Shown here: piece by piece, positions 15,473-33,038 of the stretch
Layout: each line of letters opens with the position of its first letter
Numbering within the stretch: the stretch's first letter is position 1
IMG/VR virus record: IMGVR_UViG_3300042892_001703
Span: 1 to 34,428 of that record
DNA: 34,428 nt
Source of the DNA: a virus
Direction: 5' to 3' (one strand)
The notes under the pieces: generated by a model
Databases searched by the model: none
Told to the model about the DNA's origin: nothing
Seen by the model: the letters and a program-made list of their open reading frames with translations, nothing else
Program-made: the position numbers and the translations under genes

Positions 15473-16300
15473 ATGCCAGTACAATTATCAAATTGCGGTA
15501 TAATTTTTTCCAACGGTCAGCACAAGTGCAGGATCGAAGAACAAAGAGAACAGTATATCTGGAATCTCAACAATTGGAGCCCACAAAATGGTGGCCAGTG
15601 TTGTGCGTGGACAGTACCCACAGGGACTACTACAATCAAGTTTGAAATACTGTCAGGTGGCGGCCCAGGTGGCTCGTCAGGTGGTGACTATGATCACGGC
15701 ATCGGTGGCCAAGGCGGCAATTACGGCGTAAGAACATTGCAAAAATCAGTGAATGGATTTACAGATGGCTCTGTATATACTGTATGCGCTGCTGGCTCAT
15801 CGGATTGTAGCTGCTGCTGTTCATGTAATCAAAATTGTCGACATGGATGCACCAGCTTTGTCAATGGCACTGGTCTCAGCAATTTCTGTGCCATCGGCGG
15901 CATGGGTGGCTTTACTATGTGGGATATGACCTCCAGCTGCTATAACTGCCACATTGGTAATGTTCAGTGTAACGTGGGTAACTACAATGCCGGTTGGGGC
16001 AATAATGCTTGTGATACACCAGTATACGGGTCTGATATGTGTTTTAGAGGCACAGCTGGATCATACAATTCTTCATATGACTGTTGTGCAGATAACTTTT
16101 CTGTTGCAGGCTCACCTTCCGGACCAATTAGCACAAATCATGGAGTTGGCGGCAAACATCGCTGCGTGGGCAATTTGGCCTGTTGTTCAGCACACGCAAC
16201 CTGGCCAGGTGGTGGCGGCGCAGGCCACGCAACCGACTCATCGAGTGCCTGCTGGGGCAGCTTTGGCGCCGGTGGTCTTGTTAGAATAACATATAGTTAA
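15473..16300 (+). CDS. Cysteine- and glycine-rich probable tail adhesin, copy 1
   Basis: A 275-aa protein with 24 Cys, including the cluster CSCCCSCNQNCRHGC at residues 112-126 and pairs at 43-44, 204-205 and 237-238. A glycine-rich stretch GGGPGGSSGG begins at residue 62, and further Gly-rich loops lie near the C-terminus (PGGGGAGHA, GSFGAGGLVRITYS). There is no signal peptide or membrane helix. Proteins of this type occur beside fibre genes in T4-like marine phages. The Gly-rich loops recall receptor-binding adhesins of the gp38 kind, but I cannot show homology. The Cys could form disulfides in the particle or bind metal. It begins two bases after the S74 fibre gene and is tandemly duplicated. 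Confidence 0.8.
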   Translation: MPVQLSNCGIIFSNGQHKCRIEEQREQYIWNLNNWSPQNGGQCCAWTVPTGTTTIKFEILSGGGPGGSSGGDYDHGIGGQGGNYGVRTLQKSVNGFTDGSVYTVCAAGSSDCSCCCSCNQNCRHGCTSFVNGTGLSNFCAIGGMGGFTMWDMTSSCYNCHIGNVQCNVGNYNAGWGNNACDTPVYGSDMCFRGTAGSYNSSYDCCADNFSVAGSPSGPISTNHGVGGKHRCVGNLACCSAHATWPGGGGAGHATDSSSACWGSFGAGGLVRITYS

Positions 16301-16310
16301 GGAGAAATAA

Positions 16311-17138
16311 ATGCCAACGTGTTTATCAAGTGCAGGAATAATTTACGCTAACGCTCAACATCAATGTAAAATTGCAGAACAGTATGAAATCTATGTTTGG
16401 AATACCAACAACTGGACACCACTAAATGGTGGTCGCTGTTGTGCTTTTGTAGTACCTAATGGAACCACGTCGATCAAGTTTGAAATACTGTCAGGTGGCG
16501 GCCCAGGTGGCTCATCAGGTGGTGACCATGATCACGGAGTTGGTGGCCAAGGCGGCAATTACGGCGTAAGAACCCTGCAAAAATCAGTAAATGGATTTGC
16601 AGATGGCGCAACATATACTGTATGTGCCGCTGGCTCATCGGAATGTAGCTGCTGCTGTTCATGTAATCAAAATTGTCGACATGGATGCACCAGTTTTGTC
16701 AATGGCACTGGTCTCAGCAATTTCTGTGCCATCGGCGGCATGGGCGGGTCAACTTCTTGGGACATGATCTCAAACTGCTATAACTGCCACATTGGAAATA
16801 CTCAATGCGATCTAGGCAACTACAATGCCGGTTGGGTCAATCACGCCTGTAATACGCCAGTATACGGGTCCGACATGTGTTTTAGAGGCACAACTGGATC
16901 ATACAATCACCAATACAACTGTTGTGCTGATGCGTTCGCAGTAGCAGGAGGCCCAAGCGGCCCGTGGGCTGCACCTCATGGAATTGGCGGCAAACATCGC
17001 TGCGTGGGCAATTTGGCCTGCTGTTCAGCACACGCAGCTTTCCCAGGCGGTGGCGGCTCAGGCCACGCAATCGACTCATCGAGTGCCTGCTGGGGCAGTT
17101 TTGGCGCTGGCGGCCTTGTTAGAATAACGTACAGTTAA
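16311..17138 (+). CDS. Cysteine- and glycine-rich probable tail adhesin, copy 2
   Basis: A 275-aa tandem paralogue of the preceding gene with a strong AAGGAG ribosome site. All Cys positions are kept except the first, which moves from residue 8 to residue 4. The central block around residues 112-140 is nearly unchanged. Differences gather in the first 50 residues and in residues 145-225 (for example SYDCCADNFS becomes QYNCCADAFA). This pattern fits a conserved cross-linked core with variable exposed loops, as expected if both copies bind ligands. The likely role is the same as copy 1, possibly with a different receptor or as one partner of a hetero-oligomer. Confidence 0.8.
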   Translation: MPTCLSSAGIIYANAQHQCKIAEQYEIYVWNTNNWTPLNGGRCCAFVVPNGTTSIKFEILSGGGPGGSSGGDHDHGVGGQGGNYGVRTLQKSVNGFADGATYTVCAAGSSECSCCCSCNQNCRHGCTSFVNGTGLSNFCAIGGMGGSTSWDMISNCYNCHIGNTQCDLGNYNAGWVNHACNTPVYGSDMCFRGTTGSYNHQYNCCADAFAVAGGPSGPWAAPHGIGGKHRCVGNLACCSAHAAFPGGGGSGHAIDSSSACWGSFGAGGLVRITYS

Positions 17139-17148
17139 GGAGAAATAA

Positions 17149-17865
17149 ATGGCAAAGATAACCAAAATGCTAACATACAGTATACCAGATCACTTATTTT
17201 CGTTGGAAAATACGTTGGGTAAAACCAGTACACAGTTATACGAAGGCCCAGAAGAAATAGTCATGTGGCTTGATAAAGAAACTGGCTATTTAATGCAGGC
17301 GTTTGCACCAGAAGACGAACCTGATCGTCCGCTTCCATTAGATCTCAAAAGAGAAATATTAAAAGCAGACACCGACATAAACTGCTGCAAAATTGGATTG
17401 ATCTACGGCGGATTAGAAGACCCAAAGATCTACGAAGTTTCGGTTGGTCCAGTCGATCAACCAAACGCCACAGTTGTAGATCCTTCAGATATTAGAATAG
17501 TTTATGATAAACAATCTGTAACTGACGATTACACAGCACCGCTTAAATTCTTTGAGAACAAAAGAATTAGAGATGATGCGTTTATTAGACGTGAGAGAGA
17601 TACAAGACTAGCTGCAAGTGATGGCAAAATTGCTCCAGATATGCCAGAAGCTCTAAAACAACAATGGCTGGATTATAGACAAAAACTTAGAGACCTTCCT
17701 GCAGATTGGGCAGATGTTCCTAAATATCTTGTAAGATTTCCGCGTAGTCCTGAAGACGGACCCAACATGGAATTTGAAAATGAGCATGTTAAGGTTATTA
17801 GAATCGCAGACAGAGATGCCTCCGATGCCGATGCTTTACAAAATCTACCCCCAGGCGTTTACTAA
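17149..17865 (+). CDS. Tail assembly chaperone-like protein
   Basis: A 238-aa protein. Residues ~146-198 match the Phage_tail_APC pattern, with RRERDTRLAASD, then PDMPEALKQQWLDYRQKLRDLP, then P..LVRFP. The YRQ.LRDLP core is characteristic. This domain is found in small chaperones that help tail fibres fold or attach. The first 140 residues are not recognised and hold a beta-rich segment (IGLIYGGLEDPKIYEVSVG). The gene ends the fibre block and shares the AAGGAGAAATAA leader created by the duplication upstream. A stem-loop follows its stop. I expect it to serve one of the neighbouring fibres or Cys-rich proteins. Confidence 0.7.
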   Translation: MAKITKMLTYSIPDHLFSLENTLGKTSTQLYEGPEEIVMWLDKETGYLMQAFAPEDEPDRPLPLDLKREILKADTDINCCKIGLIYGGLEDPKIYEVSVGPVDQPNATVVDPSDIRIVYDKQSVTDDYTAPLKFFENKRIRDDAFIRRERDTRLAASDGKIAPDMPEALKQQWLDYRQKLRDLPADWADVPKYLVRFPRSPEDGPNMEFENEHVKVIRIADRDASDADALQNLPPGVY

Positions 17866-17941: not shown

Positions 17942-17949
17942 AATAAATA
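17942..17949 (+). promoter_or_regulatory. T4-like late promoter box AATAAATA opening the accessory island
   Basis: AATAAATA lies 30 bases before the ATG at 17980 and 40 bases after the stem-loop. It matches seven of eight bases of the T4 late consensus. A modest AAGG ribosome site follows at 17965-17968. It would start a late transcript covering the glycosylation/oxygenase island. Confidence 0.6.
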
Positions 17950-17979: not shown

Positions 17980-18966
17980 ATGAAAAAAGCATTTTTTATA
18001 AATGGCGGCGCAGGTCGAGTACTATGCGCCATTCCCGCACTAGAGTACTATGTTAAAAACACTGATCCAACAGCAGTCATTGTTGTTGAAGGTTGGATTG
18101 ATCTATATTTAACCAGCAAAACATTAGCAAATAATGTGCATCATGCTACAAACCCAGATCTTTTTGAAAAATTAAAAGATAGAGAAATCATAACTCCCGA
18201 ACCGTATAAACTAAACGCATACTTTACTCAAAGATGCAATCTTGTGCAGGCGTTTGACATGTTGATCAACTACGATGTTCCGCCTGAACTTATCCCAGAA
18301 ACCAAAGAATATGATATTTTTATTGGCAAAAAGGATATTGCACAAGCAAACGAACTAGTCAATGAAGCTAGAAATCATTTTAAAAAGCAACAAGTAGTAA
18401 TCTTCCAACCATTTGGAAAAACAGCTGGATTACAGGGCAACACCATCATTGACGAAAGTGGTAGATCATTCGAAGTTGATGATATTATAAAAATACTTGA
18501 AGAACTGAATAAAAATTACGCTGTTATAATGATGAGCGAGTTAAAAATTCCTGGAAACAAAGCATTAGGGGTAATGGTACCGGAAAGCGTTAGTCTTTTA
18601 CAATGGACTGCAATTATCAATGCTGCTGATTATTTCTTGGGCTGCGACTCAGTGGGACAGCATATTGCACATGCCTTAAAGAAACCGGGCACAGTGGTTA
18701 TAGGCGGTACATTCCCTGAAAACATTTCGTATCCTAGTAGCAGTACACTTACTATAATCGATAACGGCAAAGACGAAAGAAAGTATTCTCCAATAAGAGT
18801 TGCGATAGACATTAGGATTGATAGACACAATGAAAATCTAATGGTGCTCAATGACGAAACTATTAAGACAATTACCAACGGGATTAAAACTACATTGAGT
18901 AAAACTGCCAAGGCATATGCTGAACCCAAACAAGCTGCTGGGTGTGCTGCACCCGGCTGTGCTTAA
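17980..18966 (+). CDS. GT9/heptosyltransferase-like glycosyltransferase
   Basis: A 328-aa protein with a GT-B-type layout. The N-terminal loop FINGGAGRVLCAIPALEYY (residues 6-24) corresponds to the GD.....P.l motif of ADP-heptose:LPS heptosyltransferases. The C-terminal donor-site block DYFLGCDSVGQHIAHALKKP (Asp223, Ser224, His228) followed by GGTFPEN is the family's signature. These enzymes transfer heptose from ADP-heptose to LPS. A related group (TibC/AAH) heptosylates protein adhesins. Genes for three ADP-heptose enzymes lie downstream in the same cluster, which supports heptose as donor. The protein ends in GCAAPGCA with two Cys (322, 327) of unknown role. The acceptor is unknown. Confidence 0.72.
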   Translation: MKKAFFINGGAGRVLCAIPALEYYVKNTDPTAVIVVEGWIDLYLTSKTLANNVHHATNPDLFEKLKDREIITPEPYKLNAYFTQRCNLVQAFDMLINYDVPPELIPETKEYDIFIGKKDIAQANELVNEARNHFKKQQVVIFQPFGKTAGLQGNTIIDESGRSFEVDDIIKILEELNKNYAVIMMSELKIPGNKALGVMVPESVSLLQWTAIINAADYFLGCDSVGQHIAHALKKPGTVVIGGTFPENISYPSSSTLTIIDNGKDERKYSPIRVAIDIRIDRHNENLMVLNDETIKTITNGIKTTLSKTAKAYAEPKQAAGCAAPGCA

Positions 18967-18989
18967 AATAAATGTCACAAGGAAAAATA

Positions 18990-20813
18990 ATGAAAAAAAC
19001 AGGATACATTGCAGGTATTGCTCGAGGGCATAATGCAGGAGTTTGTCTTTTAAAAGATGGACAAATTGTATTTTCTATTGAAGAAGAAAGACTATCTCGC
19101 TACAAATATGACGGCGGCCCGCTTGCGAGTATGATTAAAATTCTTGACTATACTGACAAGATTGATTATTTGGTAATATCTCACACACAAGGTCATGACG
19201 AACCAATAAACGATTTTGTAAGGCAAGATGTGTATTCTGCACTTGCTAGGAAGTTGAGATTAATCGACGATGTTAATACCCAAGTAATTAAATATCACGA
19301 TCAACACCATAGAAGTCACGCCGCGTTGGCATTTTATAGATCTGGGTTTGATAAAGCAAGTGCTATTATTGTAGATGGGGCAGGTACATTTATTGAACGC
19401 CCCGACGGTCAAACCATGTTTGAAGTTGAAAGTATATATGATTGTTCATACCCTGCAAACTTTGAGGAAGTGTACAAGCATTTTGGAGGCAACGGACCTT
19501 GGAGGACTGAACATTACAACAGTGATGGGAACGGTACAGAAGTTATAGTTAATGATAAAACAGGTATTGTTAAAGCATATGAAGCAGTAACTAGATTTTG
19601 TGGATTCGACTCGATAGAAGCGGGTAAAACTATGGGTCTGTTTCCGTATGGAGAACCGAACAAAGCACCTAAGATTTATGGTAATTTTGGTGGGAATAAA
19701 GATCTATTCACTAATACATATCCCAATGGCGCACTGGTCAATGAAGAAGGCTATGCTGAACTAGATGACAGGGTGTACGATCCAAAAGTAATTCATAGAT
19801 CAGTGACTGACCCCAACGATCAACGACAAATGCAGCGGTACGAGCAACAAATGCGTGAAGCTGATGCAGAAGATCTAACACAATTGGCTTCTAGAAGAAA
19901 CATGGCCTACAATGTACAAACTGAATCGCAACAACTAGTACTTGACTTGATTCTAAAATCAATTAAACGTACAGGTAATAAAAATATCGTTATCAGCGGC
20001 GGGTATGGTTTAAATTGTGTTGCCAACTATTTCTATCTACAGCACTTACCGGAAGGTGTAAAGATATATGTTGAACCTGTTTCGAACGATGCAGGTACAG
20101 CTATGGGTGCAGCATTTTATCATTACTATAAAACATCTCAAGATACAAAAGTAAGATCAAAAGATGAAAATTTATTTTTAGGTCCGGTACAACATATCAC
20201 TGAAGATGCAGTTATAGAAACTGCGGCCAAATACAGTGGCAGCGTAACAATAAATGTTGATTACAAAGATGTTATTAAGACTATTAGATCTAAAAACATC
20301 GTAGCACTATTCCAAGAACGCTGCGAAAACGGTCCTAGAGCACTAGGCAACAGATCACTGATGTTTGATCCAACATTTGCCGACGGTAAAGATTTTGTTA
20401 ATTTGATTAAAAAACGAGAATATTTTAGACCATTTGCTGCATCAGTATTACAAGATGATGTACACGATTGGTTTGATCTGCGTGGCATGGAAGATTCTCC
20501 GTCTATGATGTATGCTGTAAATTGTCAGCCGGGCGTGAAAGAAAAGATTCCAGCAGTTATACACGTTGATGGTACCTGTAGAATTCAAACAGTGACTGAA
20601 GAACAAAACTTTCATTGGTATAATCTGATTAAAGAATTTAAAAATCAAACAGGTGTTCCTGCATTGTTTAATACCAGCTTTAACCTAGGCGGCGAGCCAT
20701 TGGTTGAAACCATCGACGATGCCATGCGTACTCTTTACAACTCAGGAATTAATTACATTTATTTTCCAGCTGTTAAAATGATGGTAGAGATTGAACATAA
20801 TGACAGAGCATGA
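18990..20813 (+). CDS. NodU/CmcH-type O-carbamoyltransferase
   Basis: A 607-aa protein that should transfer the carbamoyl group of carbamoyl phosphate to a hydroxyl, usually of a sugar, through a carbamoyl-adenylate. The N-domain shows GIARGHNAGVCLLKDG, EEERLSR and the His-rich metal site DQHHRSHAALAFY (His106, 107, 110), then VDGAGTF. The C-domain shows ENGPRALGNRSLMFDP, REYFRPFAASVL and VPALFNTSFNLGGEP. Length is normal for the family. I start at 18990 because AAGGA (18979-18983) is correctly spaced for it and because the extra six codons from 18972 have no ribosome site. It lies between the GT9 gene and oxygenases. The probable substrate is the transferred sugar. Carbamoylated heptose is known in Pseudomonas LPS. 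Confidence 0.88.
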   Translation: MKKTGYIAGIARGHNAGVCLLKDGQIVFSIEEERLSRYKYDGGPLASMIKILDYTDKIDYLVISHTQGHDEPINDFVRQDVYSALARKLRLIDDVNTQVIKYHDQHHRSHAALAFYRSGFDKASAIIVDGAGTFIERPDGQTMFEVESIYDCSYPANFEEVYKHFGGNGPWRTEHYNSDGNGTEVIVNDKTGIVKAYEAVTRFCGFDSIEAGKTMGLFPYGEPNKAPKIYGNFGGNKDLFTNTYPNGALVNEEGYAELDDRVYDPKVIHRSVTDPNDQRQMQRYEQQMREADAEDLTQLASRRNMAYNVQTESQQLVLDLILKSIKRTGNKNIVISGGYGLNCVANYFYLQHLPEGVKIYVEPVSNDAGTAMGAAFYHYYKTSQDTKVRSKDENLFLGPVQHITEDAVIETAAKYSGSVTINVDYKDVIKTIRSKNIVALFQERCENGPRALGNRSLMFDPTFADGKDFVNLIKKREYFRPFAASVLQDDVHDWFDLRGMEDSPSMMYAVNCQPGVKEKIPAVIHVDGTCRIQTVTEEQNFHWYNLIKEFKNQTGVPALFNTSFNLGGEPLVETIDDAMRTLYNSGINYIYFPAVKMMVEIEHNDRA

Positions 20814-21400
20814 TTAAAAAAATAAATGAACAAGATATATTTGCAGTTAATCCTAATTTTGAAGTACATGTACATCAGTTAGGTGATACCAAATGTGTCA
20901 TTGTTGATAACTTTTATCTTAATCCTGAAAAAGTTAGAGAATTGGCTCTTTCTATTCCTGCATCGAAGAGCATGATTAGAAATACATACCCCGGACTGTC
21001 AATTAGTCTTGGAATTAATCTAACAAGTTTAGCCGATACGTTTGTTAAACTAATCAGTGAAAATTTTAATGACGGTCCTCGCAAGATTGATAAAGACATA
21101 CGTAAAACATTTGATTTTATAACATTCATGGTAAATGTAATGCAAGGACAAGACCAGCCAACTCCCCATAGAGATAGTGCAGATCCAGGTAGATTTGCAG
21201 CATCGGTATATTTAAACTACAATGACGAATCTCACGGCGGCACAGCTTTTTATTCTGAAACCGGACAAGAACTAGGATATGCAGAAATGGCTTTTAATAG
21301 ATTGGTATTATACAGGCAAACTGATGTTCACACCGCAGTGATGCAACCTGATTGGTTTGTTGAAGATGCTTACAGAATCAATCAGATGATGTTTATTTAA
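20810..21400 (+). CDS. DUF6445-like Fe(II)/2-oxoglutarate oxygenase
   Basis: A 196-aa protein overlapping the carbamoyltransferase stop by four bases (ATGA), so translation is probably coupled. The core has H120-R-D122 (TPHRDSADPGRFAASVYLNY), a GGTAFY strand, then H174 (TDVHTAV) and R189 (YRINQMMFI). This is the HxD...H iron triad plus the 2-oxoglutarate-binding Arg of a double-stranded beta-helix. The arrangement resembles the DUF6445 group. Substrate unknown. Given the sugar-transfer neighbours it could hydroxylate a protein side chain or a sugar. Confidence 0.7.
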   Translation: MIKKINEQDIFAVNPNFEVHVHQLGDTKCVIVDNFYLNPEKVRELALSIPASKSMIRNTYPGLSISLGINLTSLADTFVKLISENFNDGPRKIDKDIRKTFDFITFMVNVMQGQDQPTPHRDSADPGRFAASVYLNYNDESHGGTAFYSETGQELGYAEMAFNRLVLYRQTDVHTAVMQPDWFVEDAYRINQMMFI

Positions 21401-21414
21401 ATATGGAGGAAAAC

Positions 21415-22044
21415 ATGAACAATCAAACCGAAGGCCGAATTTACTCCTTGTTTCCTTCCCCCCTATACACATACAAAACAGAAAGCAAAGAATATACTGA
21501 AATACAGGCCGAGATGCAGACTGTGGTTGATAAACTGCATCTAGAAGATCGTTGGGGACAAAATCCATATTGGAATTCTCACACTCATTACCTATCTAAT
21601 CAAGGTGATTTTAACCAGTCTATTTTAAAAGACGAAAAAATGAGAGTGATCACTTCGTGTATAATGCACCATTGTTTTAATTATATGAGAATGATGAATG
21701 TTAAACCGCTGTACAAAGCAGCCATCGAAACTTCATGGCTTACACTAACCAAACCGGGGCAGTATGCTCATGTTCACGATCACGGTACCAGCCACGTCAG
21801 TGGAGTGTATTGGTTTAAAACAAATGGGCAAGACGGTGATCTAGTTTTTAGAAATGCTCTTAAAGCATTAAAATGCAATCCAATTGGTAGTTCATATGCT
21901 CATGAAAACGCATTTGCCCCAGAGCAAGGCAGATTAAGTATGTGGCCCGGCTATTTAGATCACAGTGTTAATGAAAATACAACCAATGAAGATCGTATTA
22001 GTTTGTCTTTCAATATTTTGTTAGAAACAGGAGCAACTAATTAA
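21415..22044 (+). CDS. 2OG-Fe(II) oxygenase (2OG-FeII_Oxy_5-like)
   Basis: A 209-aa protein. FPSPLYTYK at the N-terminus and SWLTLTKPGQYAHVHDH, then HVSGVYWF, GDLVFRN, MWPGYLDHSV and RISLSFNIL are typical of the putative 2OG-Fe(II) oxygenases annotated widely in T4-like marine phages. The likely iron ligands are in H119-V-H121-D-H123 and H183, with Arg194 for 2-oxoglutarate. I start at 21415 because GGAGG (21406-21410) is ideally placed for it. An in-frame ATG at 21403 would put that ribosome site inside the gene. Substrate unknown. Confidence 0.75.
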   Translation: MNNQTEGRIYSLFPSPLYTYKTESKEYTEIQAEMQTVVDKLHLEDRWGQNPYWNSHTHYLSNQGDFNQSILKDEKMRVITSCIMHHCFNYMRMMNVKPLYKAAIETSWLTLTKPGQYAHVHDHGTSHVSGVYWFKTNGQDGDLVFRNALKALKCNPIGSSYAHENAFAPEQGRLSMWPGYLDHSVNENTTNEDRISLSFNILLETGATN

Positions 22045-22772
22045 TGTTATATGTTTTCGGCGATAGTTTTAGTGTACCCGATGCACACAAGAATGAAGTT
22101 ATTGGGCCTACAGGTCTAGTAACGTTCATGCCGTTAGAAAAGAATTGGACTAGGATTGTTAGTGAAAGTTTAATCGGGGATGATAATCATGTAAATGACT
22201 CTCAGCTCGGGTGTTCCAATGAATACATTTTCCATACCCTAAGAGAGCGTGAATCGTCGTTTAAAAGTGGGGACTGTGTTATAGTACAGCTTACTTCTTA
22301 TTACAGAGAATGGATTTTTGAAGATAAACCAGGCATGGCAAATTTCCTAAATGCAAAATTTGTGCCAGGAGTTCATGTTACAAAAGAACAAGCCAAGGCA
22401 TTAGAAATGTATAAAAAGTATCTGCATTCCGATCACCGTCTTTTTATACAATATGATGCAATTTATGATGCAATAACTCTTAGAACTATGCTATATGCAC
22501 AACAAGGTATTCAATTTTTAATCCTGCCAGGGTTTCACAACGTTGCAGGGGTACAAGGAAATATGTTTGAAACCTCAAACTTAGAGTTTGACAGTATCGA
22601 AACATGTAACACATATCATAATAGAGTTGGCGGCGATCTGCGTTATAACCACTTTTCAGAAGTTAATCATAAAATTTTAGCAAATAAAGTAATTGACTTC
22701 TTTAACACTGGTACCACTGTGGATCTTACAACTGGGTTTAAAACTGGCATTCATACTAAAGATACTATCTAA
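22044..22772 (+). CDS. SGNH/GDSL hydrolase-like protein
   Basis: A 242-aa protein overlapping the previous stop by one base (TAATG). It begins MLYVFGDSFS with Ser8 in a GDS block I, has GCSNEYI (Gly56, Asn59) for blocks II/III, a VIVQLTS strand, LILPGFHN, and NHFSEVNHKILANKV (His203) as block V. This matches the SGNH esterase/acyltransferase fold. The usual Asp three residues before the catalytic His is not present, and Asp198 is five before. The enzyme could therefore be altered, or it could use a Ser-His dyad. It may remove or move an acyl group on a sugar or fibre protein. The role is inferred. Confidence 0.65.
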   Translation: MLYVFGDSFSVPDAHKNEVIGPTGLVTFMPLEKNWTRIVSESLIGDDNHVNDSQLGCSNEYIFHTLRERESSFKSGDCVIVQLTSYYREWIFEDKPGMANFLNAKFVPGVHVTKEQAKALEMYKKYLHSDHRLFIQYDAIYDAITLRTMLYAQQGIQFLILPGFHNVAGVQGNMFETSNLEFDSIETCNTYHNRVGGDLRYNHFSEVNHKILANKVIDFFNTGTTVDLTTGFKTGIHTKDTI

Positions 22773-23383
22773 TGAAAATACATCTTGAAGGATATCCGGT
22801 AAGCATTTCTCGATTGAATACTGTAGATCTAAAAATTCTACAGGATCATTATCTTCCATTGATATTAAATGGCAAAGAAGATGAATACAAAGGCGAAGAA
22901 AGTAGAATTTCTAAAAATGCATCTCAACGCTGGAGCGATGCTGACTTTTTTAAAAAATGGAATGATATATTACTACCTGCGCCCTATATCCAGTCTTACA
23001 TAGATTCTTTTATGTTTCAATTTTCCTATAAAGTTGAAATAGATACATGGTATAATGTGCATAATCAATATGATCATCAACAGTTACACAATCACATAAC
23101 AACAAATGTACCGGCATTTTCGTGTGTGGTCATACTAAAACAACCTAATGCAGATTCGGGACAGCTAGTTTTCAGGACTCCTAATTTATCAAATCATTTA
23201 AAATATTTAGAATTAGATCCGCAAGATCACTATCAAAACATATATAAGCCACCAATGGAAGAAGGAATATTGATAATATTCCCATCCTGTCTTGAACATT
23301 ATGTATATTATAATCAAACAAATGAATCAAGAGTTGTGTTTGCATCAAACATAGTAATAAAAAGACAAGGTAGCTTGTACTAA
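22772..23383 (+). CDS. 2OG-Fe(II) oxygenase-like protein
   Basis: A 203-aa protein overlapping the previous stop by one base. Its core shows WYNVHNQYDHQQLHNHI (His106 and His108), FSCVVILKQP, GQLVFRTPN, ILIIFPSCLEHYV (His166) and ESRVVFASNI (Arg177), the order of elements expected for a double-stranded beta-helix oxygenase. It is related in plan, but not closely in sequence, to the oxygenases on either side. The first 70 residues (SISRLNTVDLKILQDHY) are probably helical and not recognised. Substrate unknown. Confidence 0.65.
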   Translation: MKIHLEGYPVSISRLNTVDLKILQDHYLPLILNGKEDEYKGEESRISKNASQRWSDADFFKKWNDILLPAPYIQSYIDSFMFQFSYKVEIDTWYNVHNQYDHQQLHNHITTNVPAFSCVVILKQPNADSGQLVFRTPNLSNHLKYLELDPQDHYQNIYKPPMEEGILIIFPSCLEHYVYYNQTNESRVVFASNIVIKRQGSLY

Positions 23384-23943
23384 TGTCACCTACTGTTATA
23401 CCGTTTCCTATAAGTATTAAACCATTTAAGGAACATATTCAACTAAAACAACAAGTAATAGATGCCATTTCAAGACAAGATCGAGCAGAACACATGCTGG
23501 CATTTAACAGCGATATCATTAGATGCGATTGGAGTACATCTCGATATGATGGCGACAGAGAGTGGCTTAAAATTATAAATTATCCTCTTGCTATTCATCT
23601 CAACGAATGGTGCAATACCATGGGATATCAAACATTTGGTATTACTGAAATTTGGTTTCAACAGTATGCCACTGGAGGCAAACATGCCTGGCATACCCAT
23701 AGCAATAACTTTACCAACGTATATTATGTGCATTTGCCTGAAGGCGGCACCCAAACAGAATGGATAGATCCAGTGACCAAAGATATACACATATTTGATG
23801 TACATGAAGGTGACATCATTACATTTCCTAGCTGGGTAATTCACCGAGCTCCGATTAATACCTCAGAAGAAACTAAAACAATCATTTCGTGGAACATGGA
23901 CGTGTCGGTAAAAGATCATGATGCAGCCGACATCTACGGCTAA
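23383..23943 (+). CDS. 2OG-Fe(II) oxygenase-like protein
   Basis: A 186-aa protein overlapping the previous stop by one base. The core has EIWFQQYATGGKHAWHTHSN (His104, His106), NVYYVHLPEGG, EGDIITFPSWVIHRAP (His154) and TKTIISWNMDV. The position that usually holds the 2-oxoglutarate-binding Arg is Lys165 here. Lys is used in this role by some prolyl-4-hydroxylase-type members, so activity is still plausible. Substrate unknown. It belongs to the tightly overlapping run of modification genes. Confidence 0.65.
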   Translation: MSPTVIPFPISIKPFKEHIQLKQQVIDAISRQDRAEHMLAFNSDIIRCDWSTSRYDGDREWLKIINYPLAIHLNEWCNTMGYQTFGITEIWFQQYATGGKHAWHTHSNNFTNVYYVHLPEGGTQTEWIDPVTKDIHIFDVHEGDIITFPSWVIHRAPINTSEETKTIISWNMDVSVKDHDAADIYG

Positions 23944-23961
23944 TGCAGGAGAATTTTTATT

Positions 23962-24477
23962 ATGACTAAAAAATCAGAGTACGAAGTAATAGATAATTTT
24001 TTAGATAAAGAATATTTTGATACAATAAAAAATACACTAACGTCATTAGATATGAATTGGTTTTATAGAGACAATATGACATCAAAAGATGATGAGCACG
24101 GTATGTGTTATTTTACACATAATTTCTTTATAAACAACCATGTTTGTAGTCCTTACTTTAATTTACTAGAATCATTATTATATAAATTAAAAGTTTTTTC
24201 ATTACTCCAAGCTAGAACAAATATGTCTATAAGTAAAGAAGATCGATACGAATCTTCTTGGCATGTTGATTACCCTGATGGAGATTCTAAAACAGCCATA
24301 TTATATATGACAACTTGTAATGCTAAAACGATGATAGAGGTTGAAAAAGAAATAATTGGGATTGATTCTGTTGAAAACAGGATATTAATTTTTGATACTG
24401 CTATTTCTCATAAAATGATAAGTGCAACAGATGCAAAAAGAAGAATTATTATTAATTTAAATTACTTTCAAAAATGA
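23962..24477 (+). CDS. AT-rich 2OG-Fe(II) oxygenase-like protein
   Basis: A 171-aa protein with AGGAG upstream. It begins YEVIDNFLDKEYFDTIKN, as in prolyl-4-hydroxylase-like proteins, and has WHVDYPD (His101, Asp103), TAILYMTTC, then ILIFDTAISHKMI (His150) and RRIIINLNYF (Arg160 or 161), a complete HxD...H plus Arg set. Its DNA is visibly poorer in G+C than the neighbouring genes and rich in AAA and ATA codons, which suggests a separate origin. It is preceded by an 18-base gap, one of the few in the island. Confidence 0.68.
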   Translation: MTKKSEYEVIDNFLDKEYFDTIKNTLTSLDMNWFYRDNMTSKDDEHGMCYFTHNFFINNHVCSPYFNLLESLLYKLKVFSLLQARTNMSISKEDRYESSWHVDYPDGDSKTAILYMTTCNAKTMIEVEKEIIGIDSVENRILIFDTAISHKMISATDAKRRIIINLNYFQK

Positions 24478-24836
24478 AATTATTCGGTAAAATAGAAAAA
24501 GGTTGGGGACATGAAATAATATTTTCGTCCACTGACCAATACTGTGGAAAATATCTGGTGTTTGCCAAGGCTGGCGACAAGTTCAGTATGCATTACCATC
24601 TTGTCAAAGATGAAAGCTGGAACGTCAATCAGGGTAGCTTCTTGTTAAGATACATAGACACAAAGACTGCCACGATGCAGGAAAAAATCTTAAACACAGG
24701 CGATAATTGGCATAATCCTCCAGGGTTACCGCATCAACTTGAAGCGTTGGAAGACAATTCAATCATAGTCGAAGTAAGTACCCCCGATTCAGTAGAAGAT
24801 AATTTTAGAATATTTCCCGGAGATAGTCAACGATGA
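24474..24836 (+). CDS. Single-domain cupin, sugar-phosphate isomerase-like
   Basis: A 120-aa protein overlapping the previous stop by four bases. It fits cupin motif 1 exactly: Gly34, five residues, His40, one, His42, four, Glu47, six, Gly54. It fits most of motif 2: Gly76, Pro82, Gly84, His87. The opening KIEKGWGHEIIF and YCGKYLVFAKAG resemble the cupin part of mannose-6-phosphate isomerase/guanylyltransferase type proteins. The metal site looks intact. It could isomerise a sugar phosphate, bind a nucleotide sugar or act as a small oxygenase. The place just before the heptose genes favours sugar metabolism. I cannot assign the reaction. Confidence 0.75.
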   Translation: MKLFGKIEKGWGHEIIFSSTDQYCGKYLVFAKAGDKFSMHYHLVKDESWNVNQGSFLLRYIDTKTATMQEKILNTGDNWHNPPGLPHQLEALEDNSIIVEVSTPDSVEDNFRIFPGDSQR

Positions 24837-25402
24837 ATTTTATTGAAGTGTATCCAGACGCATTTCCCAAAGACTACTGTAAAACTATCATACAAAGATT
24901 TGAAGATATGGTCAAAATGGGTCAACATCTCACACAAAACAGCATGATGAAAAATCAGGACGATCGAATATTTTTTGATTGGGCATTTCACAGTCAACAA
25001 AATTTCAGCGTAGATCCTGACCTGTGTTCTTTCTTTTATAAAACTCTAAACAAGTATTATATAGAACAGTATTTTGAAAAATATCAGAGTCTTGGATTTT
25101 GTTTTCAACACACACCCAAAGGCATGAGCGTACAGAGAACCGGCCCGCGCCAAGGCTACCATGCGTGGCATTGTGAAAATGCAGATCAATCATCAGCCAA
25201 TAGAATCCTAGCTTATACCTTGTATCTCAATGATATTGAAGAGGGTGGCGAAACAGAATTTCTGTATCAAGGTCTTAAGATTAAACCAGAAACTGGCAAG
25301 TTGGTTATTTGGCCTGCCTATTTTACCCACCCTCACAGGGGGAATCCCATATATAAGGGTTACAAATATATTATAACCGGGTGGTATTCACTGGATCACT
25401 AG
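24833..25402 (+). CDS. Prolyl-4-hydroxylase-like 2OG-Fe(II) oxygenase
   Basis: A 189-aa protein overlapping the cupin stop by four bases. The core is GYHAWHCEN (His110, His113, Glu115), ILAYTLYLNDIEEGGETEFL, KLVIWPAYFTHPHRG (His166, His168) and GYKYIITGWYSL (Lys178). This is the prolyl-4-hydroxylase fold, in which Lys near W binds 2-oxoglutarate. The usual HxD is HCE here, an acidic replacement seen in some members. Proteins of this type are frequent in T4-like marine phages. It is the last oxygenase before the heptose genes, one base away from them. A protein hydroxylation role is plausible but not shown. Confidence 0.78.
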   Translation: MNFIEVYPDAFPKDYCKTIIQRFEDMVKMGQHLTQNSMMKNQDDRIFFDWAFHSQQNFSVDPDLCSFFYKTLNKYYIEQYFEKYQSLGFCFQHTPKGMSVQRTGPRQGYHAWHCENADQSSANRILAYTLYLNDIEEGGETEFLYQGLKIKPETGKLVIWPAYFTHPHRGNPIYKGYKYIITGWYSLDH

Positions 25403-25403
25403 T

Positions 25404-25802
25404 ATGTCTACAATAATAGTTAACGGTACTTTTGATATTTTGCATCCCGGGCATGTTGCCATGTTGAACACAGCTCGTAGTCTAGGAGATTATCTTGTTG
25501 TATGCATTGATACAGACAGAAGAGTTCGAGAATTAAAAGGCCAAAGCCGGCCGATCAACGACCAGATTGATCGCAAAGTGATGTTACAAAATTTAAAAGC
25601 TGTTGATATTGTAGAATTTTTTGACAGCGAAGAAGAACTGATAGCATTAATCAAACTGTATAAACCAAGTGTAATGGTCAAAGGCAGTGATTATCGCGGA
25701 CAGCGTATAGTAGGCGAAGCACACGTACCAAAGGTATTTTTTTATGACAGAGTCAGCGACTATTCAACAACTAAAACAATTCAGGATATTGCTAATAGGT
25801 GA
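25404..25802 (+). CDS. hldE: Stand-alone HldE adenylyltransferase domain (heptose-1-phosphate adenylyltransferase)
   Basis: A 132-aa nucleotidyltransferase. NGTFDILHPGHVAML gives the T..D..H.GH motif (Thr9, His14, His17). VCIDTDRRVRELKGQSRP, VMVKGSDY and DYSTTKTI complete a match to the C-terminal domain of HldE/RfaE, which joins ADP to D-glycero-beta-D-manno-heptose-1-phosphate. Related cytidylyltransferases (TagD type) are the alternative. The kinase half and HldD directly downstream favour heptose. In most bacteria this domain follows the kinase in one chain, but here it is a separate gene placed first. The last 59 bases also encode the start of the kinase in another frame. Confidence 0.82.
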   Translation: MSTIIVNGTFDILHPGHVAMLNTARSLGDYLVVCIDTDRRVRELKGQSRPINDQIDRKVMLQNLKAVDIVEFFDSEEELIALIKLYKPSVMVKGSDYRGQRIVGEAHVPKVFFYDRVSDYSTTKTIQDIANR

Positions 25803-26511
25803 CGACTGTCACGACATTTACACCTATGGTTATGTAAATCGTATCAGTCCCGAAGCACCAGTTCCTGTGTTTGAACCACAGTATACTATTCACAAAGATG
25901 GAATGGCTGGCAATGTGTGTAAGAATCTAGAAGCATTGGGATGCACAGTCAACTTCCTACACGGCAAATCTAGCGAAAAAAACAGATTAATCGATGCACG
26001 TACCAAACAACAATTATTGCGTATGGATCAAGATGTTGCCAGCGATCCTATCACTTTTGACACATCAATACCTCCTGGGTATGATGCCATTGTAATCAGT
26101 GACTACAACAAAGGCACAGTGACCTACGAATTAATAGAAGAGCTAGTTAAAGAAGTTGACGTGCCTATCTTTGTTGACACAAAGAAAACAGACCTAGCAA
26201 GACTATCAGGTTGCTATGTCAAGATTAATGCACTGGAAAAAAGTCGTGCAACAAGTTTACCCAACGCAGAGCATTTGATTGTTACGCACGGTGGAGGTGG
26301 CGCTTATTGGAATGATTGTATATACCCTGCTGAAATTGTAGGCGATGTAACTGATGTATGCGGTGCAGGTGATACATTTTTAGCAGCATTAGTATACGAG
26401 TTTTTAAAAACAGGCCGCATTCCTGATGCAGTAAAATTTGCAAACAAGGCATCGGCAGTAACAGTACAACACATAGGGGTGTATGCACCAAGACTGGAAG
26501 AAATACAATGA
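25744..26511 (+). CDS. hldE: Stand-alone HldE kinase domain (heptose-7-phosphate kinase), shortened
   Basis: A 255-aa PfkB/ribokinase-family protein. LLIGDDCHDIYTYGYVNRIS followed by PEAPVPVFEP is almost the HldE N-terminal signature. DGMAGNVCKNLEALG replaces GGAANV..N...LG. YDAIVISDYNKG is typical. DVCGAGDTFLAAL carries the catalytic base Asp210. Bacterial HldE kinase domains are nearer 320 residues. About 30-40 residues are missing around residues 70-85, after LEALGCTVNFLHG, so the sugar-covering part is trimmed. The start at 25744 is the only ATG before the first core strand, which forces the 59-base overlap with the adenylyltransferase gene. Expected reaction: ATP-dependent phosphorylation of heptose-7-phosphate. 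Confidence 0.82.
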   Translation: MTESATIQQLKQFRILLIGDDCHDIYTYGYVNRISPEAPVPVFEPQYTIHKDGMAGNVCKNLEALGCTVNFLHGKSSEKNRLIDARTKQQLLRMDQDVASDPITFDTSIPPGYDAIVISDYNKGTVTYELIEELVKEVDVPIFVDTKKTDLARLSGCYVKINALEKSRATSLPNAEHLIVTHGGGGAYWNDCIYPAEIVGDVTDVCGAGDTFLAALVYEFLKTGRIPDAVKFANKASAVTVQHIGVYAPRLEEIQ

Positions 26512-27377
26512 TTATACTAACCGGAGCCGGAGGATTTATTGGTAGTGTGGTATTAGGTTACTTGAATTTGCAACGAGTCACTGATATTATTATAGTTGAC
26601 GATCTGCCTTATGAAAATCAGTATAAAAATCTCATAGGTAAACAGTATAAAAGACTTGTTTCTATAGATGACATCGATTCAATAGATGAAAACATCACTG
26701 GAGTCATACATATCGGTGCAAATGCTAATACTCTAGAAAAAAATTGGAGTTCGATCTATGCAACGAATGTTAAATCTACAAGGAAATGGAATGCATTTTG
26801 TAAACAACGCAAAATACCTTTTATTTTTACTTCTAGCGCATCAGTATATGGTAACGGCTCTGGCCCAATGAATCAATACGCATTTAGCAAACTGCTCAGT
26901 GAAAATGAAGTAGAAGGAGTTGTCCTTCGATTGTTCAATGTATATGGGCCTAATGAGTATCACAAAGGCAGAATGGCTTCTACAATTTTACATTGGTTTG
27001 ATCAAATCAAAGAAACTGAGGAAATAACGATATTCGAAAACAGCAAGAATTATTTTAGAGATTTTGTATGGGTAGAAGATATAGCAAAAACCATATATTA
27101 TTTTATGTTTGAAAATTATCAACCTGGAATCTATGATCTCGGCAGCGGATCTAGCACGGATTTTGAAACCATAGCAGATCTTGTAATATCTAATACAAAC
27201 AAAGGCAAAAAAAGATTTGTAGATATGCCCGATGATCTTAAAAAACAGTATCAAATAAATACATTAGCTGATACGAAATTGTTAACAAAATCTGGGGTAG
27301 ATGTCAAAAGTTTCACCAACGTGTATGAAGGCATCGCAAAGTACATAGATTATTTGGCTAAAACTCGTTATTACTAA
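26508..27377 (+). CDS. hldD: ADP-L-glycero-D-manno-heptose 6-epimerase-like (HldD/RfaD)
   Basis: A 289-aa short-chain dehydrogenase overlapping the kinase stop by four bases. It has the NAD(P)-binding GAGGFIG (Gly6, 9, 12), HIGANANT, the catalytic SSASVYG (Ser110), Y124AFSK128, and RLFNVYGPNEYHKGRMAS, whose HKG.MAS is the mark of HldD as opposed to other sugar epimerases. RDFVWVEDIA follows. Bacterial HldD is about 310 residues, so this is near full length. It converts ADP-D-glycero- to ADP-L-glycero-beta-D-manno-heptose. With the two HldE halves it completes the nucleotide-sugar end of the pathway. GmhA and GmhB are not in the window. Confidence 0.87.
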   Translation: MIILTGAGGFIGSVVLGYLNLQRVTDIIIVDDLPYENQYKNLIGKQYKRLVSIDDIDSIDENITGVIHIGANANTLEKNWSSIYATNVKSTRKWNAFCKQRKIPFIFTSSASVYGNGSGPMNQYAFSKLLSENEVEGVVLRLFNVYGPNEYHKGRMASTILHWFDQIKETEEITIFENSKNYFRDFVWVEDIAKTIYYFMFENYQPGIYDLGSGSSTDFETIADLVISNTNKGKKRFVDMPDDLKKQYQINTLADTKLLTKSGVDVKSFTNVYEGIAKYIDYLAKTRYY

Positions 27378-27381
27378 TTTG

Positions 27382-27389
27382 AATAAATA
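27382..27389 (+). promoter_or_regulatory. T4-like late promoter box AATAAATA close to the start codon
   Basis: AATAAATA ends five bases before the ATG at 27395, just after the HldD stop. No ribosome site lies between. In T4 the transcript begins about six bases beyond this box, so mRNA from it would begin at or next to the start codon. Confidence 0.55.
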
Positions 27390-27394
27390 ATAAT

Positions 27395-29479
27395 ATGGCA
27401 AAGATACCCGTACTTGACGCAATAAGAATTATACCTAGAGAAACAGATTTTCTTAACAGAAGATCCGGAAATCGAGGTGAAATTTTTTATGATCGAACAG
27501 CTAATACCCTGAGACTATATGATGGAGCCACAGCTAGCGGTGTAAATCTTGCAAAAGCAGATTTAACCAATATATCTAATACAGATTTTTTAGCCAAAGC
27601 AAATTCTGCAGGATTCAGTGGCGGTGTGCAGTCAGGCGTCTCTGGAAAAATAGCATATTATCCGTCAAATGGTTCCCAAGTCAACGATCTTGCTGCATTG
27701 ACTTGGTTAGATGATTCCACTAATACGTTGATGTTATCGGGTGTGATAGATATCTCAGGACAAAAAAATCGCATCAGATTCCATTGGGACACCCTAGCAG
27801 ATCTTACAGATGAAGTGTCCCCTATAGATTATCACGGTATGGTAGCTCATGTGCATGATACAGGCAAATTGTATTATGCACATGCCGGCGCTTGGGTACC
27901 TGTGGCTGCAGAAAGCAGTCTGCCCAATACATTTGCAACTATTGCTATCGCAGGACAAAGTTCAGTGATAGCAGATACAACCGCAGACACACTGACACTA
28001 GTTGCTGGTACTGGTATTACACTAACTACCAACGCTAGTACAGATACCATTACTATCACAGGTACTGCCAGCACAGGCAACATCACCTTTGTGGCTAACA
28101 CCATAGACAGCACAGATAGCACAGCTATTACAGTAACCCCAGCAGTGAATTTTGAATCAGATGTTGTGGTAGGCAATGAAATTGTATTTGCAGACGGCTC
28201 AAGACAGGCTACTTCTGCTGTGGGGGTTCCTGGACCTCAGGGAGAGATTGGTCCTCCAGGAGCGTCAGGATCTGGATCAGGCGATGTATTGAGTGCAGGC
28301 GGCGGCTATGTGGACAACAGGATTGTGCGCTACGATGGCACAACAGGCACAATCATACAGGTTAGTAGTGCCAGTATATCAGATGTAGGGTTATTAACTG
28401 CTACAAGTTTCAGCGGTGACGGCAGTTTGATAACCGCTTTAAATGCCACTGAATTAACTTCAGGTACTGTACCTGATGCAAGATTTCCAGCTACATTACC
28501 TGCAAGTTCGGGTGTTAATTTAACAGCACTCAATGCCACTCAGTTAACTTCAGGTACTGTACCTGATGCAAGATTTCCAGCTACATTACCTGCAAGTTCG
28601 GGTGTTAATTTAACAGCACTCAATGCCACTCAGTTAACTTCAGGTACTGTACCTATAGCTCGTATAGGAGCCACAGGAACAGCCAGTGCTAGTACCTATC
28701 TCCGTGGGGATAATTCTTGGGCTACAGTTTCAGGCGGTTCATCATCAGACAGTTTTGCTACAATAGCAGTGGCCGGACAAACTTCAGTGGTAGCGGATTC
28801 AGCCACAGATACCCTGACTTTGGTAGCAGGTTCAAATATAACTATAACTACCAATGCTGGTACAGACACTATTACCATTGCTGCCGCCGGCGGCGGAACT
28901 GCATCAGATAGTTTTGCCACTATAGCGGTAGCAGGGCAAAGTTCAGTTGTTGCTGATTCAGCCACTGACACTCTTACTATAGCCGCAGGCACCGGTATCT
29001 CAATCACCACAGATGCCAGCACAGATACCGTTACAATCACCAATACGGCCTCAGCAGGTGCCTCAGCATTTACTGACTTGACGGATGCTGCTGGGCTAAC
29101 GGTGGATCAGTTCTATCTACCGGCCATAACAAGACTTAATGTAACTAATAACGGTGCTACTGCATACAGATTTGATCAATATGGCACTACTGACGATCCT
29201 ACAGTATATGCCATAAATGGCACCACTATAGCTTTCAATCTTAATGTGGCAGGTCATCCTTTTTTGATACAGGACGGCGCAGGTGCAAATTACAACACTG
29301 GGTTAGTACACGTAACCACAGGAGGCGTTGTGACTACAGGTGCATCTGCTCAAGGGCAAACATCTGGTACACTGTATTGGAAGATTCCAGATTCAATTAG
29401 TGGTAGCTACAGATATCAGTGCAGTGTTCATGCTGCTATGATTGGTACTATTTTCATTAAAAACTTTAGCAGTATTTAA
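27395..29479 (+). CDS. Tail-fibre-like protein with collagen-like stretch and C-terminal cupredoxin domain
   Basis: A 694-aa protein. GNRGEIFYDRTANTLRLYDG near the N-terminus is a segment common in marine T4-like fibre proteins. Three copies of a FATIA.AGQ.SV.AD...DTLT..AG unit lie near residues 178, 450 and 505. A short collagen-like run, GVPGPQGEIGPPG, begins near residue 277. A 30-residue repeat (TSGTVPDARFPATLPASSGV) follows near residues 350-420. The last ~90 residues look like a cupredoxin, with GHPF (His621) and C676-S-V-H679-A-A-M682, the C-x2-H-x2-M spacing of amicyanin. A copper-binding or copper-derived fold at a fibre tip is inferred. No ribosome site precedes the ATG. Confidence 0.8.
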   Translation: MAKIPVLDAIRIIPRETDFLNRRSGNRGEIFYDRTANTLRLYDGATASGVNLAKADLTNISNTDFLAKANSAGFSGGVQSGVSGKIAYYPSNGSQVNDLAALTWLDDSTNTLMLSGVIDISGQKNRIRFHWDTLADLTDEVSPIDYHGMVAHVHDTGKLYYAHAGAWVPVAAESSLPNTFATIAIAGQSSVIADTTADTLTLVAGTGITLTTNASTDTITITGTASTGNITFVANTIDSTDSTAITVTPAVNFESDVVVGNEIVFADGSRQATSAVGVPGPQGEIGPPGASGSGSGDVLSAGGGYVDNRIVRYDGTTGTIIQVSSASISDVGLLTATSFSGDGSLITALNATELTSGTVPDARFPATLPASSGVNLTALNATQLTSGTVPDARFPATLPASSGVNLTALNATQLTSGTVPIARIGATGTASASTYLRGDNSWATVSGGSSSDSFATIAVAGQTSVVADSATDTLTLVAGSNITITTNAGTDTITIAAAGGGTASDSFATIAVAGQSSVVADSATDTLTIAAGTGISITTDASTDTVTITNTASAGASAFTDLTDAAGLTVDQFYLPAITRLNVTNNGATAYRFDQYGTTDDPTVYAINGTTIAFNLNVAGHPFLIQDGAGANYNTGLVHVTTGGVVTTGASAQGQTSGTLYWKIPDSISGSYRYQCSVHAAMIGTIFIKNFSSI
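28442..28653 (+). repeat. 90-bp in-frame tandem repeat
   Basis: Units at 28442-28531 and 28532-28621 differ only at the start (ACTGAATTAAC against ACTCAGTTAAC). A third partial copy runs on from 28622 to about 28653. Each encodes 30 residues including TSGTVPDARFPATLPASSGV. Such near-identical units can gain or lose copies without breaking the frame, changing fibre length. Confidence 0.9.
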
Positions 29480-30124: not shown

Positions 30125-30135
30125 CTAGATACTTA

Positions 30136-33011: not shown

Positions 33012-33025
33012 ATATTTACCGCTAC

Positions 33026-33033
33026 GATAAATA
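33026..33033 (+). promoter_or_regulatory. T4-like late promoter box GATAAATA in the gp14/gp13 divergent gap
   Basis: GATAAATA ends five bases before the gp13 ATG at 33039, with no ribosome site between. On the minus strand, GGTAAATA just before the gp14 ATG is a weaker relative, so this 27-base gap may serve both genes. Confidence 0.5.
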
Positions 33034-33038
33034 GTTGT

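Follow-up and report, generated by a model that had tools for sequence, protein, structure and literature searches.

The DNA under study is a 34,428-base viral fragment from IMG/VR (IMGVR_UViG_3300042892_001703), referred to here as the window; all coordinates are those of the whole stretch. It carries a cassette of 13 plus-strand genes (17980-27377) with tail genes on either side, and the first gene of the cassette encodes a GT9-like glycosyltransferase of 328 residues (17980-18966; phrog_8954, E 2.6e-126) that we propose as a fibre glycosyltransferase. Upstream on the same strand lie the genes for two Gly/Cys-rich tail-fibre proteins, the proposed acceptors, each of 275 residues with 24 Cys: GlyC1 (15473-16300; 8.7% Cys, 18.2% Gly; phrog_4205, E 9e-54) and GlyC2 (16311-17138; phrog_4205; PF21722, 28.1 bits against a cut-off of 24.3). 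They are followed by APC, a tail-fibre assembly chaperone-like gene (17149-17865, plus strand; PF16778, 41.9 bits, cut-off 26.6), which also sits between GlyC and GT9 in near relatives. The pairing of a phage GT9-fold enzyme with an adjacent Cys-rich fibre, found in many marine phages and genetically tied across several phage types, is the central observation of this analysis.

An initial annotation, made by a model from the sequence alone, had described the cassette as eleven co-directional genes among fibre genes, most overlapping by 1-4 bases. The common direction and the tail genes on both sides were confirmed, whereas the annotation's own gene list, like ours, gives 13. Seven of the 12 junctions overlap by 1-4 bases; one overlaps by 59 bases (25744-25802) and four are gaps of 1-18 bases. 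GC content is 42-48% in the four 1-kb bins preceding the cassette and drops to 32-40% inside it.

The assignment of the transferase to GT9 comes from structure. Pfam family PF01075 matches it with 19.7 bits, below the cut-off of 22, and over residues 204-262 only. A model built from a 51-row alignment (m54cd8eed6571, pLDDT 90.2, the predicted local distance difference test) was compared with known structures by VIA-align. The best matches were WaaF (1psw, Z 22.0, 274 residues, 3.5 Å) and a Veillonella GT9 enzyme (3tov, Z 21.9), these two rows spanning 274-279 aligned residues, followed by TibC (4rb4, Z 19.7, 266 residues) and WaaC (Z 19.0); other GT-B enzymes scored about 12, well below the 18-22 of the GT9 rows. 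Chains of the plant chloroplast NDH complex (7wff, 7f9o, 9grx) also match the model, with Z 18.4-18.7. The comparison with heptosyltransferases and TibC, suggested in the initial annotation, therefore places the window transferase inside the GT9 fold, over its whole length as modelled. The acceptor candidate was treated in the same way. A model of GlyC2 from one copy (m1d935e409615, pLDDT 73, weak at residues 154-180) aligns with the fibre of cyanophage Pam3 (7ypx, VIA Z 18.9, 192 residues, 3.0 Å) and with a Bxb1 tail-tip chain (Z 12.9). By family (PF21722) and predicted fold, GlyC2 is a phage Gly-rich tail fibre. Searching the PDB by sequence with GT9 and GlyC gave no relative, only two rows at chance level.

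To describe the neighbourhoods of GT9 genes, 270 GT9 open reading frames (ORFs) were grouped into 101 clusters at 90% identity, of which 73 have full context (3.5 kb or more to either side). A Cys-rich neighbour was defined as an ORF within six genes of GT9 that is 150 residues or longer and contains 10 or more Cys per 100. Such an ORF was present in 70 of the 73 full-context clusters and in 23 of the 28 with partial context. By comparison, 9 of 659 other ORFs in the same loci are equally Cys-rich, a set that still includes such neighbours, and 1 of 420 in four cyanophages that lack GT9. That single ORF (Syn9, NC_008296, 117343-118959, minus strand, 14 Cys per 100) lies antisense to gp23 (117655-119028) and is therefore probably no gene.

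The Cys-rich neighbours do not all belong to one family. In 64 of the 70 clusters they are GlyC relatives by profile; the other six (L215, L216, L292, L268, L214 and L140) represent about four further fibre types, L268 resembling L140 and L214 partly resembling L216. What the different fibre types beside GT9 share is mainly their Cys richness. One of them (L292, 8-5290) is a 1760-residue fibre of repeats that we take to be YadA-like, three genes ahead of GT9. With duplicate contigs included, GlyC lies within 6 kb upstream of GT9 at 163 of 183 loci; 19 are too short, and one (L140) has another Cys-rich protein. A reverse scan with GlyC (loci L173-L202) found GT9 after the chaperone in 20 of 30 cases, the other 10 contigs ending before that place. 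Among 16 named phage genomes, GlyC occurs in all five with GT9 and in none of the 11 without it. The order GlyC-APC-GT9-CarbT, CarbT being the carbamoyltransferase described below, recurs in IMG/VR contigs and cyanophages, which bears out the expected conservation of the genes beside fibre genes in related phages. A tblastn search of phages with GlyC1 gave no match even though P-SSM2 holds relatives; it is uninformative, and the low-complexity filter is suspected.

Distant, stand-alone GT9 genes keep the same partner. In the Vibrio phages D505 and SBP1 and the Aeromonas phage HJ05, the gene directly beside GT9 encodes a Cys-rich tail protein, the Cys count being 41, 41 and about 23, respectively (4.1% of 559 residues in HJ05). 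These enzymes are far apart: HJ05 and D505 are 37% identical, SBP1 and D505 55%, and identity to the window enzyme is 25% for HJ05 and 28% for D505. No ORF of D505 or SBP1 other than the neighbour of GT9 reaches 150 residues and 10 Cys per 100; HJ05 has two such ORFs, and the only two in P-SSM2 are the GlyC genes beside GT9. The Cys-rich protein of HJ05 may be a remote GlyC relative, through its C-terminal end. Because only that pairing was found in these phages, the minimal pair is GT9 plus a Cys-rich fibre, to which the carbamoyltransferase, oxygenase and heptose genes are additions.

The GT9 family itself looks phage-borne, its clade lying almost only on viral contigs. A scan of genome contigs found 51 stretches that fit the patterns, 11 of which encode a GT9 relative, in 10 loci; seven of these are in metagenome-assembled genomes with GlyC-type genes adjoining GT9 and the other three matches are weak. 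An IMG/VR scan with the D505 GT9 as query returned no relative. Low-scoring outer branches of the family (L242/L243, L252, L256/L257) occur in other contexts, without a Cys-rich neighbour.

Fibre families that occur both with and without GT9 allow Cys content to be compared within a family. Where GT9 is present, the SBP1-type tail protein carries 41 Cys in 925 residues (SBP1), 41 in 1756 (D505), 39 in 1643 (K479) and 58 in 760 (L217); where it is absent, the counts are 4 in 1155 (D63), 4 in 1176 (1.004.O), 7 in 575 (1.224.A, like SBP1 a member of the Schitoviridae) and 6 in 1121 (1244). The GT9 profile matched SBP1, D505, HJ05 and K479 and found nothing in D63, 1.004.O, 1.224.A or 1244. With K479 left out as near-identical to D505, 127 Cys sites could be aligned to GT9-less homologues, and only 2 of them are Cys there. 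At these sites the GT9-less proteins have D, E, K, R, N or Q in 47% of cases, compared with 30% elsewhere (Fisher p 1.6e-4, the sites not being independent).

The second family, PF21722, was searched in 17 genomes, nine of which gave no match; one 67-residue Syn9 frame was dropped. In genomes without GT9 its fibres are poor in Cys (Cys/residues: S-SM1 0/350, S-RSM4 0/350, S-CAM8 1/393, HTVC008M 0/297, S-SSM5 2/388, Syn9 2/266 and 7/392). Beside the cassette the values are 36/356 in P-SSM2 and 25/299 and 31/310 in S-CAM1, and away from it in the same genomes 2/485 and 1/714, respectively, the P-SSM2 36/356 and S-CAM1 31/310 and 1/714 matches being below the family cut-off; a further S-CAM1 fibre beside the cassette (36/311) was matched by the GlyC profile only. 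Over the two families, GT9-linked copies have 25-58 Cys and unlinked copies 0-7. Since fibres of the same family are Cys-rich beside GT9 and Cys-poor elsewhere, even inside one genome, Cys content follows the enzyme, and neither the fold nor the genome.

A linkage of this kind could also arise if the fibre were glycosylated on Ser, Thr, Asn or hydroxylated residues while its Cys formed disulfide or metal cross-links that make a rigid adhesin, the two traits being co-selected. The acceptors of TibC are Ser and Thr. That adhesin heptosyltransferase has the GT9 fold and heptosylates TibA and AIDA-I (excerpts of PMC4358343), and six genes of the cassette for proteins like 2-oxoglutarate (2OG) oxygenases could make hydroxyl acceptors. 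The distribution of Cys points in another direction. Among 161 non-redundant GlyC proteins, with 17-40 Cys each, the number is odd in 81. Of 44 alignment columns with at least 15% Cys, 37 are variable with varied replacements, and the remaining seven, at 85% Cys or more, are what cross-links would lead one to expect. In the L292 fibre, 103 Cys are scattered over the repeats and equivalent repeat positions hold other residues. Because odd and even numbers are at parity, most Cys columns are variable and the L292 Cys are scattered, the pattern looks, in the alignments, more like decoration sites singly gained and lost than like paired disulfides. With this pattern, with Cys richness as the main common feature of the fibre types, and with the frequent polar or charged residues at the Cys sites of GT9-less homologues, we consider modification of residues other than Cys rather unlikely, even though the GT9-fibre linkage would suit it equally well.

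The active site of the transferase bears on the same question. Where WaaF and WaaC have Asp, which we take to be the catalytic base in WaaC (Asp13), the window enzyme has Arg13, and all 57 clade members that were aligned have Arg there (MAFFT); WaaU aligns poorly at this position. In 261 of 270 GT9 ORFs the motif GGxGR falls within the first 35 residues, L270 has GGAGK, and the other eight start elsewhere or are cut. An hhalign comparison with three E. coli GT9 enzymes matched 48 columns only, with probability 54, so the comparison of Arg13 with Asp13 relies on MAFFT and on the fold having the same N-terminal starting point in the structural alignment. A DS/T...H motif in the C-terminal domain is common to the window enzyme and WaaC/WaaF. 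Loss of the Asp would fit a Cys acceptor, as a thiol should depend less than a hydroxyl on a catalytic base, and to that extent it speaks against acceptors of the Ser/Thr type. In TibC, Asp110 is named through superposition with WaaC and MurG, according to the excerpted text of PMC4358343.

The rest of the cassette consists of genes that would build or alter the sugar. CarbT (18972-20813) is a NodU/TobZ-type O-carbamoyltransferase with both domains, Carbam_trans_N (PF02543, 88.9 bits) and Carbam_trans_C (PF16861, 186.8 bits), above cut-off, as the initial annotation had it; a relative lies within six genes of GT9 in 67 of the 73 full-context clusters. The annotation's claim of six 2OG-oxygenase-like proteins holds for four by Pfam: OG2 (21403-22044; PF13759, 67.1 bits), which adjoins CarbT or DUF6445 in near relatives, OG3 (22772-23383; PF13759, 47.1 bits), OG4 (23383-23943; PF13759, 37.8 bits) and a prolyl-hydroxylase-type enzyme (24833-25402; PF13640, 55.3 bits; phrog_61, E 1.2e-46). 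The DUF6445 protein (20810-21400; PF20043, 75.7 bits) reaches 20.8 bits with 2OG-FeII_Oxy_3, below cut-off, and OG5 (23962-24477) matches phrog_274 (E 1.4e-45) and no Pfam model. Between OG2 and OG3 lies a gene with the weak label SGNH-hydrolase-like (22044-22772), which has no Pfam match, weak PHROGs and NCBIfam matches only, and close to its N terminus GDSFS, presumably an SGNH motif. A small cupin (24474-24836; phrog_7851, E 2e-33; Cupin_2, 22.3 bits, below cut-off) belongs to a type that mostly co-travels with Hld genes. Halogenase-like genes are found in some related cassettes (L005, L266, L300), accompanied in L005 by a HemK-like gene; halogenation or methylation of the fibre by such genes is conceivable.

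The last three genes resemble those for ADP-heptose: HldE2-like heptose-1-phosphate adenylyltransferase (25404-25802; TIGR02199, 124.7 bits, cut-off 181.5), a compact HldE1-like heptose-7-phosphate kinase (25744-26511; TIGR02198, 127.6 bits, cut-off 345) and HldD-like ADP-heptose 6-epimerase (26508-27377; TIGR02197, 226.7 bits, cut-off 274.6). In each case the ADP-heptose family is the top NCBIfam match. HldD keeps Tyr124 and Lys128 (YxxxK) and Lys153, which we assume to be catalytic, and the kinase keeps GAGD, while all three scores are below the equivalog cut-offs. The kinase lacks a segment found in E. coli HldE, and the copies in P-SSM2, S-CAM1 and S-SSM7 have the same deletion.

The initial annotation had treated the heptose genes as part of one set with the transferase and carbamoyltransferase. 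The carbamoyltransferase is nearly constant; a kinase or adenylyltransferase lies within twelve genes of GT9 in 41 of 73 clusters, and we rejected the ADP-heptose genes as an essential core. In eight longer related contigs, hand-picked, several of them because heptose genes were absent locally, five had no kinase match, including one of 186 kb that gives two other matches to PF01467; sequences of this kind may not be complete, or the sugar may come from the host. In D505, SBP1 and HJ05, no PF01467 gene was found (control genomes matched) and no heptose kinase (two positive controls matched); a carbamoyltransferase search of these three also found none, in a run that matched nothing at all. The GT9 fold together with the co-travelling Hld genes suggests heptose as the sugar, which we think somewhat likely.

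Enzymes of the HldE/HldD and GT9 kinds are those of the lipopolysaccharide (LPS) core, and the initial annotation had named remodelling of host LPS against superinfection as its main alternative. Extended to capsule, this is the published interpretation of such genes: cyanophage 'LPS genes' were described as of unknown use or as 'stuffer DNA' (Sullivan 2010, excerpts of PMC3037559), and for pelagiphages, in which LPS genes form part of a host-recognition cluster, O-chain modification was proposed (Zaragoza-Solas 2020, excerpts of PMC7029224). The hosts offer a comparison. The LPS of the marine Synechococcus strains WH8102 and CC9311 is described in part of PMC4515613 as having neither heptose nor 3-deoxy-D-manno-octulosonic acid (KDO), yet the WH8102 phage Sf-FS3 has genes for an adenylyltransferase, a kinase, a GmhA-like protein and an epimerase, and so have other phages of Synechococcus. 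A phage of the Sf-FS3 type would have to bring the pathway, and the Vibrio and Aeromonas phages carry the transferase alone. Vibrio and Aeromonas produce ADP-heptose themselves. Remodelling of LPS would also leave the gain of Cys in the fibre unexplained, and GT9 remains tied to fibre and chaperone genes; weakened in this way, it is an unlikely reading.

Two further roles were weighed. A cluster in S-SSM6a has been proposed to be a pathway for a halogenated amino-acid/sugar metabolite or for capsule decoration (Iyer 2021, excerpts of PMC7824862), and S-SSM7 adds to its cassette a halogenase, a PF05175 (HemK-like) gene and a second carbamoyltransferase gene. The constant core is nevertheless the Cys-rich fibre and GT9, and the three stand-alone GT9 phages have no detected carbamoyltransferase, kinase or PF01467 gene. 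Halogenase and HemK can, moreover, also act on protein-bound residues, and we hold a small-molecule pathway to be very improbable. DNA hypermodification with carbamoylated bases comes to mind because some NodU-type carbamoyltransferases act on 5-hydroxymethylcytosine, and because S-RIM44, Sf-FP1 and Sf-CH3 have CarbT-like matches that overlap an annotated thymidylate synthase. Profile searches of the cassette found no thymidylate synthase or base-modifying gene, and the cassette has a late, fibre-side position; we rejected this explanation as the most improbable of all.

The reading that we prefer is that the cassette acts on the phage's own tail fibres, which we regard as probable. Late in infection the GT9-like enzyme would move heptose from ADP-heptose to GlyC1 and GlyC2, most likely forming an S-linked sugar on exposed cysteines, and the carbamoyltransferase would cap the sugar. 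The 2OG oxygenases, the cupin and the SGNH protein may trim or hydroxylate sugar or protein; hydroxylation of the fibres is a guess. HldE1, HldE2 and HldD would supply or top up ADP-heptose where the host makes little, and the sugar coat might change receptor binding or shield the fibre. That Cys is the acceptor we propose tentatively, at a little short of even chances. The more general form, in which a widespread GT9-fold branch borne by phages acts as a Cys S-glycosyltransferase and several kinds of Cys-decorated fibre are its acceptors, S-heptosylated and often carbamoylated, is possible and is offered with slightly more reserve; in this form, fibres would acquire exposed cysteines by the tens where the enzyme is a neighbour and have none of them where it is missing. 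The interpretation in the initial annotation, modification of the phage's own fibres or Cys-rich adhesins, is thus partly supported: right in direction, and sharpened to the Cys-rich upstream fibres and possibly to cysteine itself.

Several points weigh against this interpretation. The support is computational, drawn from sequences and models. The seven near-invariant Cys columns of GlyC may well be structural disulfides or metal sites, and Arg13 is an altered active site that says nothing on the acceptor. A Cys-rich neighbour is missing in 3 of the 73 full-context clusters (L242, L252, L257) and 5 of the 28 with partial context, and 32 of the 73 have no heptose gene nearby. In the window, HldD, kinase and adenylyltransferase all remain below their equivalog cut-offs and no GmhA- or GmhB-like gene was seen. 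The site statistics count related sequences as independent, and the deficit of hydrophobic residues at the Cys sites (23 versus 30%, p 0.09) is not significant.

Beyond the cassette, a plus-strand gene (27395-29479; phrog_677, E 1.8e-47) encodes a tail fibre or baseplate connector with a short collagen-like stretch. As a target of the transferase this fibre was rejected: it has 0.1% Cys, and no homologue stands beside GT9 in several near loci. Its collagen-like run, GPQGEIGPPGASG, near the prolyl-hydroxylase-type gene, may be a hydroxylation target. The late-promoter-like boxes of the initial annotation are present, by sequence match, as AATAAATA at 17942-17949 (plus strand) and again at 27382-27389; TAAATA occurs 24 times in the whole window against 36 expected, which is no enrichment, and the claim is suggestive only. 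Past the fibre the strand switches, and gp15, the tail-sheath stabiliser, and adjacent ORFs are on the minus strand (29476-33065). The closest relatives of the gp15 homologue are those of jumbo T4-like phages (PA5oct 36%, Phosso 32%), and the window is therefore a fragment of a T4-like, jumbo-related phage and no typical cyanophage.

If the fibre is the target, the long-puzzling cyanophage 'LPS genes' gain a concrete object in the virion, and the system would be a case in which a virus encodes the glycosylation of the fibre that recognises its host. A Cys acceptor would add a new chemistry to the GT9 fold and make the fibre a viral glycoprotein of a new kind. Either would bear on host range and on the reading of marine phage genomes, and the enzyme might serve as a tool. 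Searches of open-access PMC listed no paper on glycosylation by this cassette that is linked to Cys or directed at fibres.

The window cassette is a version of one already published, where it was read as LPS or metabolite genes and not as virion modification. In P-SSM2, S-CAM1, S-CAM3, S-SSM7 and Sf-FS3 a similarly ordered set of genes (GT9-like, CarbT, adenylyltransferase, kinase, GmhA-like, cupin and epimerase) lies just downstream of Gly-rich proteins, the S-CAM3 adenylyltransferase being a tblastn match not annotated under that name. This cassette, the 'LPS genes' of cyanophages (T4-GC 302-308 in P-SSM2), has the same core and fibre-side position as that of the window, which differs in having no GmhA-like gene, an epimerase gene that shares the strand of the others, and a larger number of 2OG genes. 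WaaC and WaaF are alike to the window transferase over the whole length of the fold and differ in sequence (identity about 13-15%) and in Asp13. TibC and AAH, the bacterial autotransporter heptosyltransferases (BAHT), share with it the GT9 fold, a gene beside that of the adhesin to be modified and a likely ADP-heptose donor. The window enzyme nevertheless lacks the TibC features tested. TibC has an N-terminal beta-barrel (residues 1-97) and an iron finger (Cys339, 342, 358 and 370), as given in excerpts of PMC4358343; residue 1 of the window model aligns to TibC residue 97, and the window enzyme's Cys (16, 86, 222, 322 and 327, the last two in a disordered tail) form no such set. We accordingly rejected membership of the BAHT type, from which the window system also departs in having Arg for the catalytic Asp, a phage fibre in place of an autotransporter, and a Cys-rich partner. 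For the proposed linkage the nearest likeness is to the S-glycosylated bacteriocins (sublancin with SunS, and glycocin F), in which the sugar is attached to Cys in a peptide encoded next to the enzyme; those acceptors are small peptides, not virion fibres, and enzymes of the SunS type belong to a different glycosyltransferase family.

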